A stretch of 64,000 bases of DNA from Oceanobacillus damuensis (GTDB lineage: Bacteria > Bacillota > Bacilli > Bacillales > Amphibacillaceae), in NCBI RefSeq assembly GCF_001618145.1, contig NZ_LQNF01000014.1, forward strand, positions 1-64,000, written 5' to 3'. A program made the translations under genes and the position numbers. Position 1 is the first letter of the stretch. Every line of letters begins with the position of its first letter. Below the pieces are notes generated by a model, which saw only the letters and a list, made by a program, of their open reading frames with translations, was not told where the DNA came from and did no database searches. Of the stretch, positions 13,968 through 59,553 are shown piece after piece.

Positions 13968-14405
13968 GTGCTGTCGAAATTTCTAATCATCATCACAACA
14001 TTGTTTTTACTTATCAACATCTATTACTTTTTTACCAATAAAGAATTTAAAAAAAGCTATGTCAGCTTTGCTCTTTTTTACAAACTGCTTTACGTCTTTA
14101 TAGGTCTGACCGTTGGCTTCGCTGTATTGTATAAACTATTATCTTTGGAAGAAGATATTCTTTTAATAAACGATCCGACTGGGGAGCCAGCTGATGACTC
14201 TTTTCTTACCTTCCTTTACTTCAGTGGGGTTACTATCTTATCCATTGGGTATGGGGATCTCGTACCGGTAGGGAGGGCCAGGTTTGTATCTTTGTTCGAA
14301 GCAAGTATCGGTGTCCTGCTGCCAACGGCTTATTTTTTGAAAGCGATGGGAATTCAACGGCCTGAAAAGCAAGAGGAGAAAGAGATTAATAGACAAGAGG
14401 AATAA
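13968..14405 (+). CDS. Two-TM ion channel (potassium-channel pore type)
   Basis: A 145-aa membrane protein with hydrophobic segments at about 4-24, 39-63 and 111-128, and a pore loop carrying TILSIGYGDLVP (about 88-99). GYGD is the potassium selectivity filter; the usual TVGYGD is SIGYGD here. There is no RCK/TrkA-N regulatory domain, so this is a short pore subunit. The start is GTG 13968 after AAAAGGAG. The C-terminus is highly charged (EKQEEKEINRQEE). It is followed by a long riboswitch-bearing region. Confidence 0.75.
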   Translation: MLSKFLIIITTLFLLINIYYFFTNKEFKKSYVSFALFYKLLYVFIGLTVGFAVLYKLLSLEEDILLINDPTGEPADDSFLTFLYFSGVTILSIGYGDLVPVGRARFVSLFEASIGVLLPTAYFLKAMGIQRPEKQEEKEINRQEE

Positions 14406-14566
14406 TGGGGGGAGATAGAAAAAAATTGCCCATAAAAGTTTGTCTTCTTATCCTGAGCTTCCTATGAATTATTACAATGTCGGAAATCAAGGTCAAGTAC
14501 AAACTTTTATTTTTCTTCAGCAACATAGGTTTCTAATCTATTATCCAACAAATATAATTTTTTGGC

Positions 14567-14595
14567 TTGCAATTAGGCGCAAAATTTGTTAGGAT
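14567..14595 (+). promoter_or_regulatory. Candidate sigma-A promoter for the ZTP riboswitch transcript
   Basis: TTGCAA (14567-14572), a 17-base spacer, then TAGGAT (14590-14595). Start of transcription is expected near 14602, just ahead of the aptamer. Confidence 0.5.
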
Positions 14596-14612
14596 TAATC
14601 CAAATTTAGTGG

Positions 14613-14681
14613 TCATATGTAACTGGCGAAACGCGGATAACCGCAGGGGAGCATATGTATCGAAAAGTCGATCGCCTGGGC
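14613..14681 (+). ncRNA. ZTP (pfl) riboswitch aptamer
   Basis: Matches the pfl motif closely: P1 arms built from CATATG (14614-14619 and 14652-14657), the conserved GTAACTGGCG, the internal stem GCGGATAACCGC, the invariant AGGGGAGC, and after a linker the separate P3 element with CGCCTGGGCA (14673-14682). ZTP riboswitches sense the purine intermediate ZMP/ZTP that accumulates when 10-formyl-THF is scarce and usually turn gene expression on. Confidence 0.88.
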
Positions 14682-14718
14682 AGAGGTAAGGGGAATCATC
14701 CCCTTGCCTCTTTATGCT
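14682..14718 (+). terminator. Expression-platform terminator of ZTP riboswitch
   Basis: A 13-bp stem: AGAGGTAAGGGGA (14682-14694) and TCCCCTTGCCTCT (14699-14711), loop ATCA, then TTATGCTT. It directly abuts the P3 GGGCA, as expected for a ligand-controlled terminator. AGGAGG follows at 14724-14729 but no start codon is found behind it. Confidence 0.85.
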
Positions 14719-14823
14719 TACTTAGGAGGCGATACATAATTAACAGTCATATATACACGTAATGAAAGTAAAATTGTATAGTTAAAAAGCTATGATTGTT
14801 GTGGGTTACACTATAACAGGAGC

Positions 14824-14892
14824 AGCTTCTGGAGAGGATGCATCTATTGCAGCGCCGAAGGGTTCAAGATCTCAGGCAAAAGGACAGAAGAA
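14824..14892 (+). ncRNA. Glycine riboswitch, single aptamer
   Basis: Contains the core elements GGAGAG (14831-14836), GCCGAAGG (about 14852-14859) and CTCAGGCAAAAGGACAG (14871-14887), with P1 closed by CTTCT/AGAAG. Only one aptamer is visible and P3 is short, so this is a singlet-type glycine switch. Glycine switches normally control gcvT operons or glycine exporters; here the next genes are serC-serA. Confidence 0.85.
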
Positions 14893-14926
14893 TAACAAAT
14901 GTTTGTTTGTTATTTTGACGTTTAAT

Positions 14927-14955
14927 GAGATTGGGAGGCTGCCAGTCTCTTTTTT
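14927..14955 (+). terminator. Terminator following glycine aptamer
   Basis: GAGATTGG (14927-14934) pairs with CCAGTCTC (14942-14949), followed by six T. An AT-rich hairpin AATAACAAA/TTTGTTATT (14891-14914) lies between aptamer and terminator and could be the competing structure. Confidence 0.75.
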
Positions 14956-14967
14956 AGTAGTTAAAAA

Positions 14968-15041
14968 AGTATAGACTTTCTTAACTCCATAAGTGCAACT
15001 AACGCTGTCACGAAAGGCTTGGTGACAACCAGGTTTTCTAA
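14968..15041 (+). repeat. Dispersed repeat AGTATA..CATAAGTGCAACTAA, copy 1
   Basis: Shares CATAAGTGCAACTAA and a GTCAC..GTGAC hairpin plus GACAACCA.GTTTTCTAA with copies at 36714-36796 and, reversed, 59464-59553. It lies between the glycine riboswitch terminator and serC. Confidence 0.75.
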
Positions 15042-15089
15042 TATTTCTTTATGTTGGACAGATAAATTTGAATAGGATGTGGTGATTAA

Positions 15090-16172
15090 ATGAATAGGGT
15101 ATTTAATTTCTCTGCAGGTCCATCCATGCTTCCACTGCAAGTATTGGAAATGGCTCAGGAAGAATTGGTCAATTATAGAAATTCAGGCATGTCTGTTATG
15201 GAGCTGAGTCATCGATCCGAGCTTTTTACAGAGATAATTAACGAAGCGGAACAGTTGCTGAGAGAATTGATGGCTATTCCAGACAATTACAACGTACTTT
15301 TTATTCAGGGTGGTGCTTCCCAGCAATTTGCGATGGTGCCGATGAACCTGCTTGGCAATAGTGGGAAAGCAGATTACGTAAATACTGGATCCTGGTCAAA
15401 GAAAGCAATCAAAGAAGCGAAGAAATTTGGTGAAATTCGCGTTATCGCCTCCTCGGAGGATGAAAATTTTACGTATATACCAGCTGTCAACAAAAGCATG
15501 ATAGACCCAGAAGCGGATTATGTGCATATAACAACGAATAACACAATCGAAGGAACTAGTTATTGCGAGATTCCAGATACTGGTGACGTCCCACTTGTTG
15601 CGGATATGTCATCCAATATATTATCTGAGCAAATCGATGTTTCGGATTTTGGTTTGATTTATGCAGGTGCCCAGAAAAATATCGGGCCTGCTGGTCTGAC
15701 AGTTGTCATCATTAGAGAAGATTTAATCGGACGTGCAATGGAGACATGCCCGACGATGCTTGATTATAAGACACACAGTAACAGTGGCTCATTGTATAAC
15801 ACGCCGCCAACATATGGGGTTTATGTGGCAAAGCTAGTATTTGAATGGCTGAAAGAACTTGGCGGATTAAAAAAAATGGAAAGAATAAATCGTAAAAAGG
15901 CTCAAATCCTGTACGACGCGTTGGAAATATCCACCATGTTCAGATCACCTGTGCGAAGAGATAGCCGTTCATTAATGAATATCCCATTTGTTTCCGATTC
16001 AGATGAACTGGATGCCGCTTTTGTGAAGGAAGCAAAAGTGAAAGGACTTGAAACATTAAAAGGCCATCGTTCGGTTGGAGGCATGCGTGCCAGCATTTAT
16101 AATGCAATGCCGGTTGAAGGAGTCGAGGCATTGGTTACATTCATGAGAGATTTTGAGAATAAACATAAATAG
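15090..16172 (+). CDS. serC: Phosphoserine aminotransferase
   Basis: A 360-aa PLP enzyme converting 3-phosphohydroxypyruvate and glutamate to phosphoserine, the second step of serine synthesis. Landmarks: the N-terminal [11 protein letters not shown], the PLP phosphate region [12 protein letters not shown] (about 73-84), the Lys-PLP site in [16 protein letters not shown] (about 188-203) and the substrate segment [17 protein letters not shown] (about 228-244). Length is typical. It is followed 15 bases later by serA, forming a serCA operon. Upstream lie a ZTP and a glycine riboswitch, suggesting control by one-carbon and glycine status. Confidence 0.95.
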
Positions 16173-16187: not shown

Positions 16188-17387
16188 ATGAACACACTGA
16201 CATTGGACAAGGTCAAAACGATAAAAACATTAAATAACATTGCAGAGAGCGGCTTAAACGTTTTTAAGAATGCCGATTATATGATAGATGATGAAAGTGA
16301 AAGCCCAGATGCGATTGTTGTCCGCAGTTTTAATATGCACGAAATGGAGTTTGACAACAACTTAAAGGCAATTGCACGGGCTGGAGCTGGTGTTAATAAT
16401 ATTCCCGTCGACAAGTGTACGGAACAGGGGATTGTGGTGTTTAACACACCTGGTGCCAACGCAAATGCTGTGAAAGAAATTGTATTAACGTCTTTAATGG
16501 CATCCTCTCGTAATTTATTTGCCGGTGTCAATTGGGTAAAAACGTTACAAGGTAAAGGAGACCAAGTGCCAAGTCTTGTGGAAGCCGGAAAGAAACAGTT
16601 TGTCGGTAAGGAAATCAAAGGCAAGAAATTAGGTGTTATCGGACTGGGAGCGATTGGTGCACTTGTAGCAAATGATGCACTAGATCTCGATATGGATGTT
16701 ATTGGCTATGATCCATTTATCTCAATCAATACAGCTTGGGAGCTTTCCCGAAACGTGCAGCGGGCAATGACATTGGAGGAATTGTTTGCTGAGTCTGATT
16801 ACATTACGGTTCACGTCCCTTTAACGGACGATACAGTCGGAATGTTTAACGAGAAAGCCTTCAGCATCATGAAGCCTGGAGTCCATATTTTAAACTTCTC
16901 CAGAGGGGGACTTGTAAATGAAACGGACATGGCTGAGGCGCTTGAAAGTGGGAAAGTAGGCAAATATATTACTGATTTCCCTAACGAAAGTGTACTAAAT
17001 ATGAAAAACGCTGTTCCGGTACCGCATCTTGGTGCTTCCACAAGCGAATCAGAAGAGAACTGTGCGATTATGGCAACCCGTCAGGTGAAAGAATATCTTG
17101 AAACTGGTAACATTAAAAATTCAGTGAATTTCCCTAATGCTTCAATCCCATACACAGGGAAACGCCGTATAACCGCATTCCATCTCAATATTCCAAACAT
17201 GGTCGGTCAGATCAGCTCTGCTATATCGAACAACAATCTCAACATTGCTGATATGATCAACAGAAGCCGTGGTGAATATGCCTACACGATGGTGGATATA
17301 GACAATAATCTGGACGGCAATATTATTTCTGAATTAGAGGAAGAAATCAAAACAATCACGGGCATTGTTACAGTACGTGTAATATAA
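16188..17387 (+). CDS. serA: D-3-phosphoglycerate dehydrogenase, short ACT-containing type
   Basis: A 399-aa NAD-dependent dehydrogenase for the first committed step of serine synthesis. The NAD-binding motif GKKLGVIGLGAIGALVAND is at about 144-162; the substrate/catalytic elements include RAGAGVNNIP (about 64-73), NFSRGGLVNE (Arg, about 238-247) and PHLGASTSESEENC (His, about 277-290). The C-terminal ACT domain (about 325-399, ITAFHLNIPNMVGQISSAI) could bind serine. It lacks the intervening ASB domain of the 525-aa B. subtilis enzyme, resembling the short forms of other Firmicutes. The RBS is AGAGGAG. Confidence 0.93.
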   Translation: MNTLTLDKVKTIKTLNNIAESGLNVFKNADYMIDDESESPDAIVVRSFNMHEMEFDNNLKAIARAGAGVNNIPVDKCTEQGIVVFNTPGANANAVKEIVLTSLMASSRNLFAGVNWVKTLQGKGDQVPSLVEAGKKQFVGKEIKGKKLGVIGLGAIGALVANDALDLDMDVIGYDPFISINTAWELSRNVQRAMTLEELFAESDYITVHVPLTDDTVGMFNEKAFSIMKPGVHILNFSRGGLVNETDMAEALESGKVGKYITDFPNESVLNMKNAVPVPHLGASTSESEENCAIMATRQVKEYLETGNIKNSVNFPNASIPYTGKRRITAFHLNIPNMVGQISSAISNNNLNIADMINRSRGEYAYTMVDIDNNLDGNIISELEEEIKTITGIVTVRVI

Positions 17388-18371: not shown

Positions 18372-18442
18372 TAAAACAAATTTGACCTTTTGCTGATTGT
18401 CCTTTATGATATTCAAGAAGAGAATACCCGTGCAATTAACGG

Positions 18443-18483
18443 GAGAGGTTCATAGCTGATACCCTCTATAAAAAACTATGGAT
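18443..18483 (+). ncRNA. PreQ1-I riboswitch aptamer
   Basis: AGAGGTTCATAGCTGATACC then CTCTATAAAAAACTATGGATAC reproduces the preQ1 class I consensus: stem AGAGG/CCTCT, loop with the conserved C, and the A-rich tail whose CTATGG pairs with the loop to make the pseudoknot. Confidence 0.93.
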
Positions 18484-18495
18484 ACTTGACGATAC

Positions 18496-18608: not shown

Positions 18609-19109
18609 ATGTCTGGCCGTAATGATAAAGAAGGTTTGAAGGATTTGACACTGCTCGGAAATCAGAAAGTGGATTATTCATTTGAGTATGCACCGCAGGT
18701 TTTGGAGGCAGTGGACAATCTGCACTCAGATCGTGATTATTTCGTCAAATTCAATTGTCCGGAGTTCACAAGTCTTTGCCCAATAACGAATCAACCGGAT
18801 TTTGCGACGATGTATATCTCTTATATTCCAAACAAGAAGATTGTGGAATCTAAATCACTGAAACTATACTTGTTCAGTTTTCGAAATCATGGTGATTTTC
18901 ATGAGGATTGCGTGAATATCATTATGAACGATTTGATTGAGTTGCTTGATCCTAGATATATCGAGGTATGGGGAAAGTTCACACCGCGTGGGGGGATTTC
19001 AATTGACCCATGGTGCAACTATGGACAGCCAGGAACCAAGTATGAGGAGATGGCAAATCATCGATTGATGAACCATGATCTCAATCCGGAAAAAGTTGAT
19101 AATCGATAA
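18609..19109 (+). CDS. queF: NADPH-dependent 7-cyano-7-deazaguanine reductase
   Basis: A 166-aa QueF of the single-domain type. It reduces preQ0 to preQ1 in queuosine biosynthesis. The catalytic Cys57 and Asp64 lie in [16 protein letters not shown], and the QueF motif with NADPH-contact residues is [20 protein letters not shown] (about 81-100). The RBS AAGGGGG precedes ATG 18609. It sits directly behind the preQ1-I riboswitch and is followed by the precursor transporter, so this is a feedback-controlled queuosine salvage/synthesis unit. Confidence 0.95.
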
Positions 19110-36713: not shown

Positions 36714-36796
36714 GTCAGGAAAGTATAAACTTTTCAACCTGCATAAGTGCAACTAAGGTTATCACCGAAAGTCTTAATGACAACCAAGTTTCTAAA
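36714..36796 (+). repeat. Dispersed repeat AGTATAAAC..GCATAAGTGCAACTAAGG, copy 2
   Basis: Sequence GTCAGGAAAGTATAAACTTT, then CAACCTGCATAAGTGCAACT, then ATCACCGAAAGTCTTAATGA and CAACCAAGTTTCTAAA. Shared with 14968-15041 and 59464-59553 (reverse); partial at 17465. Confidence 0.8.
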
Positions 36797-36886
36797 ATAA
36801 AAATTCTGACAGGGCATAATAAAGAGATCATCAGCTAAAGATATAGTAAAAAGTAGATCAGTTAATCTCGGGAAGGGGATTGTGAT

Positions 36887-43695: not shown

Positions 43696-43912
43696 GAACA
43701 AAAGCGCAAGCGCCTTGATCACCCCCGACAAAAAGGAAGTTCGGCTAATAACACCACATCCTGTGGCAACGCCGAACTGACCCACGTCCTGTGGGCCCAA
43801 GTAGAAACTATCAGTGGCGTTCTTTGCCACAGGTAGTTTCTACTTAAGACCTCGAGGGGGGTAGGCGCTGGAGCTGGCCGTGGCCGTTTATGTGTAAGAG
43901 TTAATTGCTGCC
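43696..43912 (+). repeat. Composite dispersed repeat, copy 3
   Basis: Starts with the same 37 bases as the 19724 copy (GAACAAAAGCGCAAGCGCC...CCCGACAA), has its own GTTCGGC..GCCGAAC hairpin, then the shared AAGTAGAAACT..AGTTTCTACTTAAGACCTCGAGG hairpin module, and ends GTTAATTGCTGCC. It lacks the central GCGCTTGGAATG module. Confidence 0.85.
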
Positions 43913-50812: not shown

Positions 50813-50835
50813 CAATATACGTTATCCTCCATTTC

Positions 50836-51014
50836 GATCAGTAGTTCTCCATGCATTATTACATTGCATGACAGTACATTTCCTATTCGAAAACATACCA
50901 GCCATAATAAGCTTGACCCTTATTATGCTTCGGCAAATAATCCTTTCAGCAATCATCACAGGTGTCATACTCCGATTGAATACTCATATTATTTGCGCCT
51001 CTACCTCACCGATC
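50836..51014 (-). ncRNA. lysC-type: Lysine riboswitch (L box)
   Basis: On the minus strand the 179-nt aptamer reads through all L-box elements in order: P1 GATCGGT, then GAGGTAGAGGCGC, GAGTA, GGAGTATGACACCTGTGATG, TGAAAGGATTATTTGCCGAAG, ATTATGGCTGGTATG, TACTGTCATGCA, and TGGAGAACTACTGATC closing P1. Length and all conserved blocks agree with the lysine riboswitch. Lysine binding should promote the following terminator and switch off the amidohydrolase-AgcS operon. Confidence 0.9.
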
Positions 51015-59259: not shown

Positions 59260-59463
59260 AAAAAGTCTAAAGATTTTTACGTTTCTATGAGAGCTTACAT
59301 TTCTGTGGAAAATCAAATCATGGAGTGGGGAAAGATAGAAGCATTGGATTTTGGTCAAAATTCATACATATTAAATATATTCTAAATGTTTGATGATATC
59401 AACCGTATTTGAATATTGCATTTTAAATTTATGATCTAATAATATGGCGACACTATTTATCCA

Positions 59464-59553
59464 TCTTAGAAAACTCGATTGTCAACAAGCCTTTTGGTGA
59501 AAACCTTAGTTGCACTTAAGCAGGTTGTCAAGTTTATACTTTTCTTCCTGACA
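59464..59553 (-). repeat. Dispersed repeat AGTATAAAC..GCATAAGTGCAACTAAGG, copy 3 (reverse)
   Basis: On the minus strand: GTCAGGAAGAAAAGTATAAA, CTTGACAACCTGCTTAAGTG, CAACTAAGGTTTTCACCAAA and AGGCTTGTTGACAATCGAGT TTTCTAAG. Between yuaF promoter region and the regulator gene. Confidence 0.8.

Follow-up and report, generated by a model that had tools for sequence, protein, structure and literature searches.

A ZTP and glycine riboswitch tandem ahead of serC-serA in Oceanobacillus damuensis: anatomy of a predicted two-input gate and its relatives

Introduction

Five tandems in which a ZTP and a glycine riboswitch precede a serine-pathway gene have been described in Bacillus and Oceanobacillus, with the logic "A AND NOT B" (Sherlock et al. 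2022, PMC9481103). Two further tandems in the same account come close to this form. In the ZTP/THF-I tandem, the unit behind the ZTP ON switch is an OFF switch for tetrahydrofolate, a ligand related to one-carbon metabolism, while the glycine/T-box(Ser) tandem found before serC, serA and serS combines a glycine OFF unit made of two full glycine aptamers with a second input over serine biosynthesis, i.e., uncharged tRNA(Ser) (PMC9481103). Among glycine riboswitches, the type-2 singlet is defined as a ghost aptamer located 5' of the binding aptamer, and 90% of type-2 singletons are reported to regulate transport genes (PMC6944388).

Here, we analyzed a 64,000-nucleotide stretch of Oceanobacillus damuensis DNA (hereafter, the window) in which the leader of serC-serA carries both a ZTP and a glycine aptamer. 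An earlier note, made from the letters alone, had suggested that this arrangement was new; this suggestion does not stand, as the five tandems published in 2022 have the same logic. The window locus shares with them the order of the two switches, the predicted ON and OFF directions, the host group (Bacillus/Oceanobacillus) and the target, namely the gene starting serine synthesis from 3-phosphoglycerate (PMC9481103), and is a real, well-built member of this published gate. Beyond the published account of the five tandems, it offers a singlet/ghost architecture, a predicted antiterminator and a serC-serA gene order, along with related permease and ACT leaders and inserted repeats. It further resembles the ZTP/THF-I tandem, except that its second ligand would be glycine rather than tetrahydrofolate, and the type-2 singlets, with which it shares a ghost P1 hairpin immediately 5' of a lone full aptamer, except that the latter mostly control transport while the target here is serine biosynthesis (PMC6944388). 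What is new here is the anatomy, the evolution and two neighboring gate types in relatives. A literature search, with most subscription journals outside its scope, recognized no other reports of purine-ZTP or ZTP-glycine gates, and the sources it reached gave no sign of tests of the ZTP/glycine form in vitro or in cells.

We propose that the serC-serA leader is one transcript running through two independent terminating riboswitches, with an output of "ZTP high AND NOT glycine high", a reading that we consider probable.

Results

Anatomy of the leader

The elements of the leader and the two genes behind it are as follows (positions are those of the window).

14567-14595, + strand: predicted sigma-A type promoter; TTGCAA at 14567-14572, 17 nt, TAGGAT at 14590-14595, extended -10 TG
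14609-14688, + strand: ZTP/ZMP (pfl) riboswitch aptamer; RF01750, 57.7 bits, cut-off 39, model positions 1-86
14682-14711, + strand: terminator hairpin of the ZTP switch; 13 bp, -22.9 kcal/mol
14722-14733, + strand: purine-rich motif TTAGGAGGCGAT, 3' of the ZTP terminator
14789-14823, + strand: ghost aptamer; C-stem 14789-14790/14822-14823, P1 14798-14804/14811-14817
14819-14897, + strand: glycine riboswitch aptamer, assigned to the type-2 singlets; RF00504, 46.2 bits, cut-off 32
14869-14874, + strand: antiterminator 5' strand AUCUCA, inside aptamer P3, predicted by folding
14891-14914, + strand: spacer hairpin AAUAACAAA/UUUGUUAUU, in the RNAalifold consensus of 9 sequences
14926-14931, + strand: antiterminator 3' strand UGAGAU, overlapping the terminator 5' arm, predicted by folding
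14927-14949, + strand, with U-tract to 14955: terminator hairpin of the glycine switch; 8 bp, loop 7, tail TTTTTT
14960-15053, + strand: interspersed repeat separating the glycine terminator from serC; genome-wide, 42 matches including this copy
15090-16172, + strand: serC, phosphoserine transaminase; TIGR01364, 538.6 bits, cut-off 443.6
16188-17387, + strand: likely serA-like D-3-phosphoglycerate dehydrogenase (short form); best model TIGR01327, 258.8 bits, cut-off 454

Both aptamers were recovered over their full length in an Rfam covariance search of the 64-kb window (E = 9.3e-7 for RF01750 and 2.8e-6 for RF00504), each above its Rfam cut-off, and each is followed on the same strand by a terminator of its own, as the earlier note had read from the letters for a complete pfl/ZTP aptamer with a 13-bp terminator and for a singlet glycine aptamer. 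The gap between them, put there at about 140 bases, is somewhat shorter when counted to the Rfam glycine match: 107 nt from the first terminator and 130 nt from where the ZTP match ends. The order, the strand and the serC assignment of the two genes hold as first described, while serA is a likely rather than a certified name because its TIGR01327 score falls below the cut-off; the protein carries both 2-hydroxyacid dehydrogenase domains (PF02826 and PF00389) above their cut-offs.

The ZTP aptamer is the only RF01750 match in the whole genome. Its terminator has the tail TTATGCTTAC, with a weak U-tract. Behind the purine-rich motif that follows, no ORF was found at the usual spacing; by eye, similar AGGRGG stretches occur at the same place in the composite loci (the 8 loci with both ZTP and glycine aptamers ahead of serC or serA) and in serA loci, but no conserved reading frame follows them across these loci, and a small ORF was rejected on that ground.

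A conserved block of ~35 nt stands 5' of the glycine aptamer, and RNAalifold also drew a hairpin in it from 9 sequences. We evaluated the proposed ghost helix in 28 sequences aligned without structure, a set that favors the helix because 19 of its rows had been collected with a model containing it: each of the 252 cells of its 9 proposed pairs is paired. Slid versions of the helix pair in 18–69% of cells. Three pairs changed on both sides, in 13 cells vs. 4.4 in shuffles (0 of 500 shuffles as high), while the number of such pairs was matched by 31 of 500 shuffles. By its sequence, then, the block reads as an RNA structure, a ghost-aptamer hairpin, and the glycine unit as a type-2 singlet, i.e., one complete aptamer preceded by a ghost helix. 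A kink-turn between leader and linker is part of the type-2 singlet definition; in these sequences, the C-stem between leader and linker has only 2 bp and is invariant.

Two of these elements, the ghost aptamer at 14789-14823 and the interspersed repeat at 14960-15053, were absent from the earlier note. Copies of the repeat span ~80–94 bases, and two more lie in the window, at 36720-36798 (+) and 59463-59543 (-). We also considered a third riboswitch in the stretch from the glycine terminator to serC and rejected it, as 14960-15053 is the repeat and a permissive Rfam search returned nothing there; over 14400-15200 as a whole, this search gave no further believable family. Elsewhere in the window, we noted a PreQ1 riboswitch at 18439-18485 (+; 41.5 bits, cut-off 39) with a downstream ORF at 18609 matching QueF-II, a Bacillaceae-1 RNA at 43729-43795 (+; 78.2 bits), and a lysine riboswitch at 50834-51011 (-; 122.9 bits).

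A single predicted transcript

Promoters were scored with approximate sigma-A weights, taken from general knowledge, in three segments of the 8 composite loci. In the window, the site at 14567-14595, whose TG lies one base ahead of TAGGAT, is the best in 110 nt (score 8.9, p = 0.03 vs. 300 shuffles), close to where a promoter had been suggested before, and in all 8 composite loci the best site ahead of the ZTP aptamer combines a 17-nt spacer with an extended -10 (scores 8.9–10.6, p = 0.01–0.06). A simpler scan of 14400-15090 on the plus strand returned no site at its threshold, so that the assignment of the window's promoter leans on the comparison and on the extended -10. Downstream, nothing scored above shuffles in the window's ZTP-glycine linker (best 4.4, p = 0.68) or between the glycine terminator and serC (best 3.2, p = 0.89); a promoter in the latter stretch driving serC-serA by itself would have spoken against the reading of the earlier note. 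Taken together, these patterns predict a leader that would start near 14602 and continue as a single transcript through both switches.

The main competing account places the two switches on separate transcripts: serC-serA would be driven from a promoter in the ZTP-glycine linker or within the repeat, and the ZTP unit would be a remnant or the source of a short RNA. We consider this improbable, although it is the best of the alternatives. It can draw on the Shine-Dalgarno-like purine-rich motif standing without a gene 3' of the ZTP terminator, and on the inserts between the glycine terminator and serC, i.e., the 94-nt repeat in the window and, at the same place ahead of serC, larger inserts of 629 nt in genome G075 and 671 nt in genome G152. 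The G152 insert contains a fair promoter match (score 9.1, p = 0.05), and a possible promoter also occurs in the ZTP-glycine linker of G154 (score 7.8, p = 0.09). In the window, however, nothing promoter-like beats shuffles in either place, and a ZTP unit reduced to a remnant would sit poorly with its retention ahead of serC or serA in 59 of 66 family loci.

The conserved block ahead of the glycine aptamer, which might have housed a second promoter, is instead explained as a ghost aptamer. A locus of Halobacillus hunanensis (L077) bears on the same point: at 2773-2947 it has the ghost block and a glycine aptamer (46.2 bits), ahead of serC, and it has no ZTP match in its 7 kb, and a TTGAAT-17-TATAAT site lies 117 nt upstream of the ghost P1. 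Since the block lies well downstream of this promoter-like site, it need not be a promoter. An independent promoter ahead of the window's glycine aptamer was accordingly rejected, given the covarying hairpin, the lack of a site beating shuffles and the Halobacillus counterexample.

Direction of the two switches

For the glycine unit, folding of the window's nascent RNA up to the terminator 5' arm gave a pairing probability of 0.97 for AUCUCA with UGAGAU. This pairing recurred at 0.71–0.99 in all 8 composite loci and at 0.54–1.00 in 28 of the 29 loci L166-L194, among which L167 repeats the composite locus of G074; it failed in the Halobacillus locus (0.14) and in L188 (0.01). GAGAT follows the glycine aptamer in 30 of 30 loci (L165-L194), and GAGATTGG is found in 28 of these, namely those where sequence extraction stopped at the motif. 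With the predicted antiterminator and the GAGAT 3' of the aptamer, the glycine switch should be OFF.

As to the ZTP unit, 63 of 66 family ZTP loci have a stem with no fewer than 9 pairs 3' of the aptamer, and in 42 of the 66 the stem begins directly 3' of aptamer P3. In the window, the terminator abuts P3 without visible overlap, so that anatomy is silent on how the ligand would stop it. Two pairings of the tail behind the terminator were tried as routes to an ON switch and rejected: with CCUGGGCA of P3, the mean longest run was 4.86 vs. 4.26 in shuffles, and with the aptamer's GAGC strand it was 8.48 vs. 7.83 in shuffles and 8.57 with the tail of another locus. Neither supports an ON mechanism. 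ZMP/ZTP is the expected ligand of an RF01750 aptamer, and the family precedent in PMC9481103, as far as this account goes, together with physiology, suggests that ZTP turns expression on.

The opposite direction would make the leader a pair of OFF switches, i.e., a NOR gate in which ZTP turns expression off. The drawn structures do let the ZTP aptamer and its terminator coexist, and an OFF direction is predicted for a tandem ZTP pair before moeA; the same account, however, gives ON as the typical direction and as that of the ZTP/glycine tandems (PMC9481103). An OFF switch would also make little sense for serine synthesis, a one-carbon source, and a non-exhaustive search found no antiterminator competing with the ZTP aptamer. 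We thus hold a NOR gate to be quite unlikely.

Less likely still, and very improbable in our view, is a glycine unit that is vestigial or changed in ligand: its 46.2 bits are the second lowest among the six glycine matches of the genome (two of them pairs), but the aptamer core is intact in the alignment and 77 of the 108 positions of the first sequence are invariant across the 9 serC/serA glycine elements, as counted from the list. The other glycine switches of the genome stand ahead of gcvT (pair, C14), a PTS_EIIC_2 membrane protein (pair, C22) and serine hydroxymethyltransferase (single, C30).

In the AND NOT gate that we favor, transcription would start near 14602 and meet the ZTP and glycine switches in series. 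When ZMP/ZTP builds up, i.e., when 10-formyl-THF is short, RNA polymerase would pass the ZTP terminator. In the absence of glycine, AUCUCA of the aptamer would then pair with UGAGAU in the 5' arm of the terminator, letting transcription continue, while in its presence the aptamer would retain AUCUCA, the terminator would form, and transcription would stop. On balance, serine would be made under high ZTP, provided that glycine is not high as well. The serial order of the aptamers on one strand and the terminator of each are observed, the single leader coming from promoter prediction, and the two-input logic pointed out in the earlier note, with a start ahead of the ZTP aptamer, is supported to this extent by sequence and comparison.

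ZTP loci and their partner switches in the family

We next evaluated ZTP loci across 159 family genomes, with stricter filters and hence at the cost of weak matches, and obtained 66 matches in 53 genomes. The first serine gene downstream is serC in 38 loci and serA in 21; the other seven precede FolD (3), an AgcS/Na_Ala_symp symporter (3) and a methyltransferase-like protein (1). When all 66 loci were scanned with Rfam, with flanks of varying length and some ending at contig ends, a glycine aptamer adjoined ZTP in 11, i.e., 8 before serC or serA and 3 before the symporter. A purine aptamer (RF00167, 71–78 bits) stands 107–179 nt ahead of ZTP in 5 of the 66 loci, all before serA.

Purine-ZTP-serA loci: L016 (genome G010), L037 (G125), L048 (G014), L054 (G015), L055 (G109)
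ZTP, double glycine aptamer and AgcS/Na_Ala_symp symporter: L057 (G090), L059 (G064), L063 (G067)

In the purine loci, scored without a shuffle control, the top-scoring promoter-like site is located upstream of the purine aptamer (10–11 of 13 points, 17-nt spacer, TATATT, TG), with sites between the terminator and ZTP reaching 7–8 points on the same terms. In some of these loci, folding draws a long helix from the 3' side of the aptamer into the terminator arm. The aptamer reads GACUAC at the position where guanine-type purine aptamers carry a C. The arrangement is likely a guanine-OFF, ZTP-ON gate. Each symporter locus has two glycine matches 3' of ZTP; no SerC was found in the three genomes at E 1e-30 or better, and their best SerA-like matches are partial, at 40–41%, such matches being present in the window's genome too. 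A purine/ZTP pair is absent from Table 2 of PMC9481103, whose main text uses neither the term "symporter" nor the term "purine riboswitch".

Relatives of the glycine cassette

Model R1, which combines the ghost with the aptamer and leans to serC/serA elements in its ranking because it was built from them, matched in 113 of 397 genomes of the order and in 47 of 159 of the family, with one match each in the family. Among the best 30 loci in the order, 26 have an amino-acid permease downstream, and the remaining four are the window, a serA locus in G074, a transposase-like gene and an ACT-domain gene. One permease example (L170) comes closest to the D-serine/D-alanine/glycine transporter model, at 615.5 bits, below the cut-off of 732. 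A further 26 family loci divide into serC/serA (6), permease (9), ACT-domain protein (9) and no clear gene (2), the ACT-domain names coming from sequence, with L194 and L217 tested by model. Relatives of the cassette thus mostly precede an amino-acid permease or an ACT-domain gene. By eye, a ZTP aptamer lies beside an R1 element only in G000 and G074 among the matches listed from the 397 genomes. The type-2 singlet glycine elements noted before a small ACT-domain gene are those of L194, L211-L214 and L216-L220, from the family and one other genome. A possible serC remnant ahead of the ghost aptamer in G071 was dropped, being too short for judgment.

A 50-row tree groups the 8 composite serC/serA elements (support 90/94) at an open fork, and puts them with neither the permease nor the ACT elements. 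The Halobacillus glycine element lies apart from this group, so that the label "ser" needs two changes on the tree.

Discussion

Overall, we suggest that ZTP is a standing input to serine supply in the family and that partner switches are exchanged around it. Specifically, a type-2 singlet glycine cassette (ghost, aptamer and terminator), of the kind otherwise found before permease and ACT-domain genes, would have been taken into a serC/serA leader once; a guanine-type purine switch would have come to stand ahead of ZTP-serA in other genera; and ZTP with a double glycine aptamer would precede a sodium:alanine/glycine-type symporter where no SerC was found. We give this scenario about even chances. 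If true, the purine-ZTP-serA and ZTP-glycine-symporter arrangements would be two further RNA logic gates.

With the serC-serA leader, nature offers a two-input RNA device whose inputs and stops are all legible in the sequence. It provides a testable rule, in which serine supply would be wired to a folate-shortage signal while the second input (glycine, purine or none) would be exchangeable between genera, and the loci gathered here form a natural series for the study of how riboswitch cassettes move and combine.
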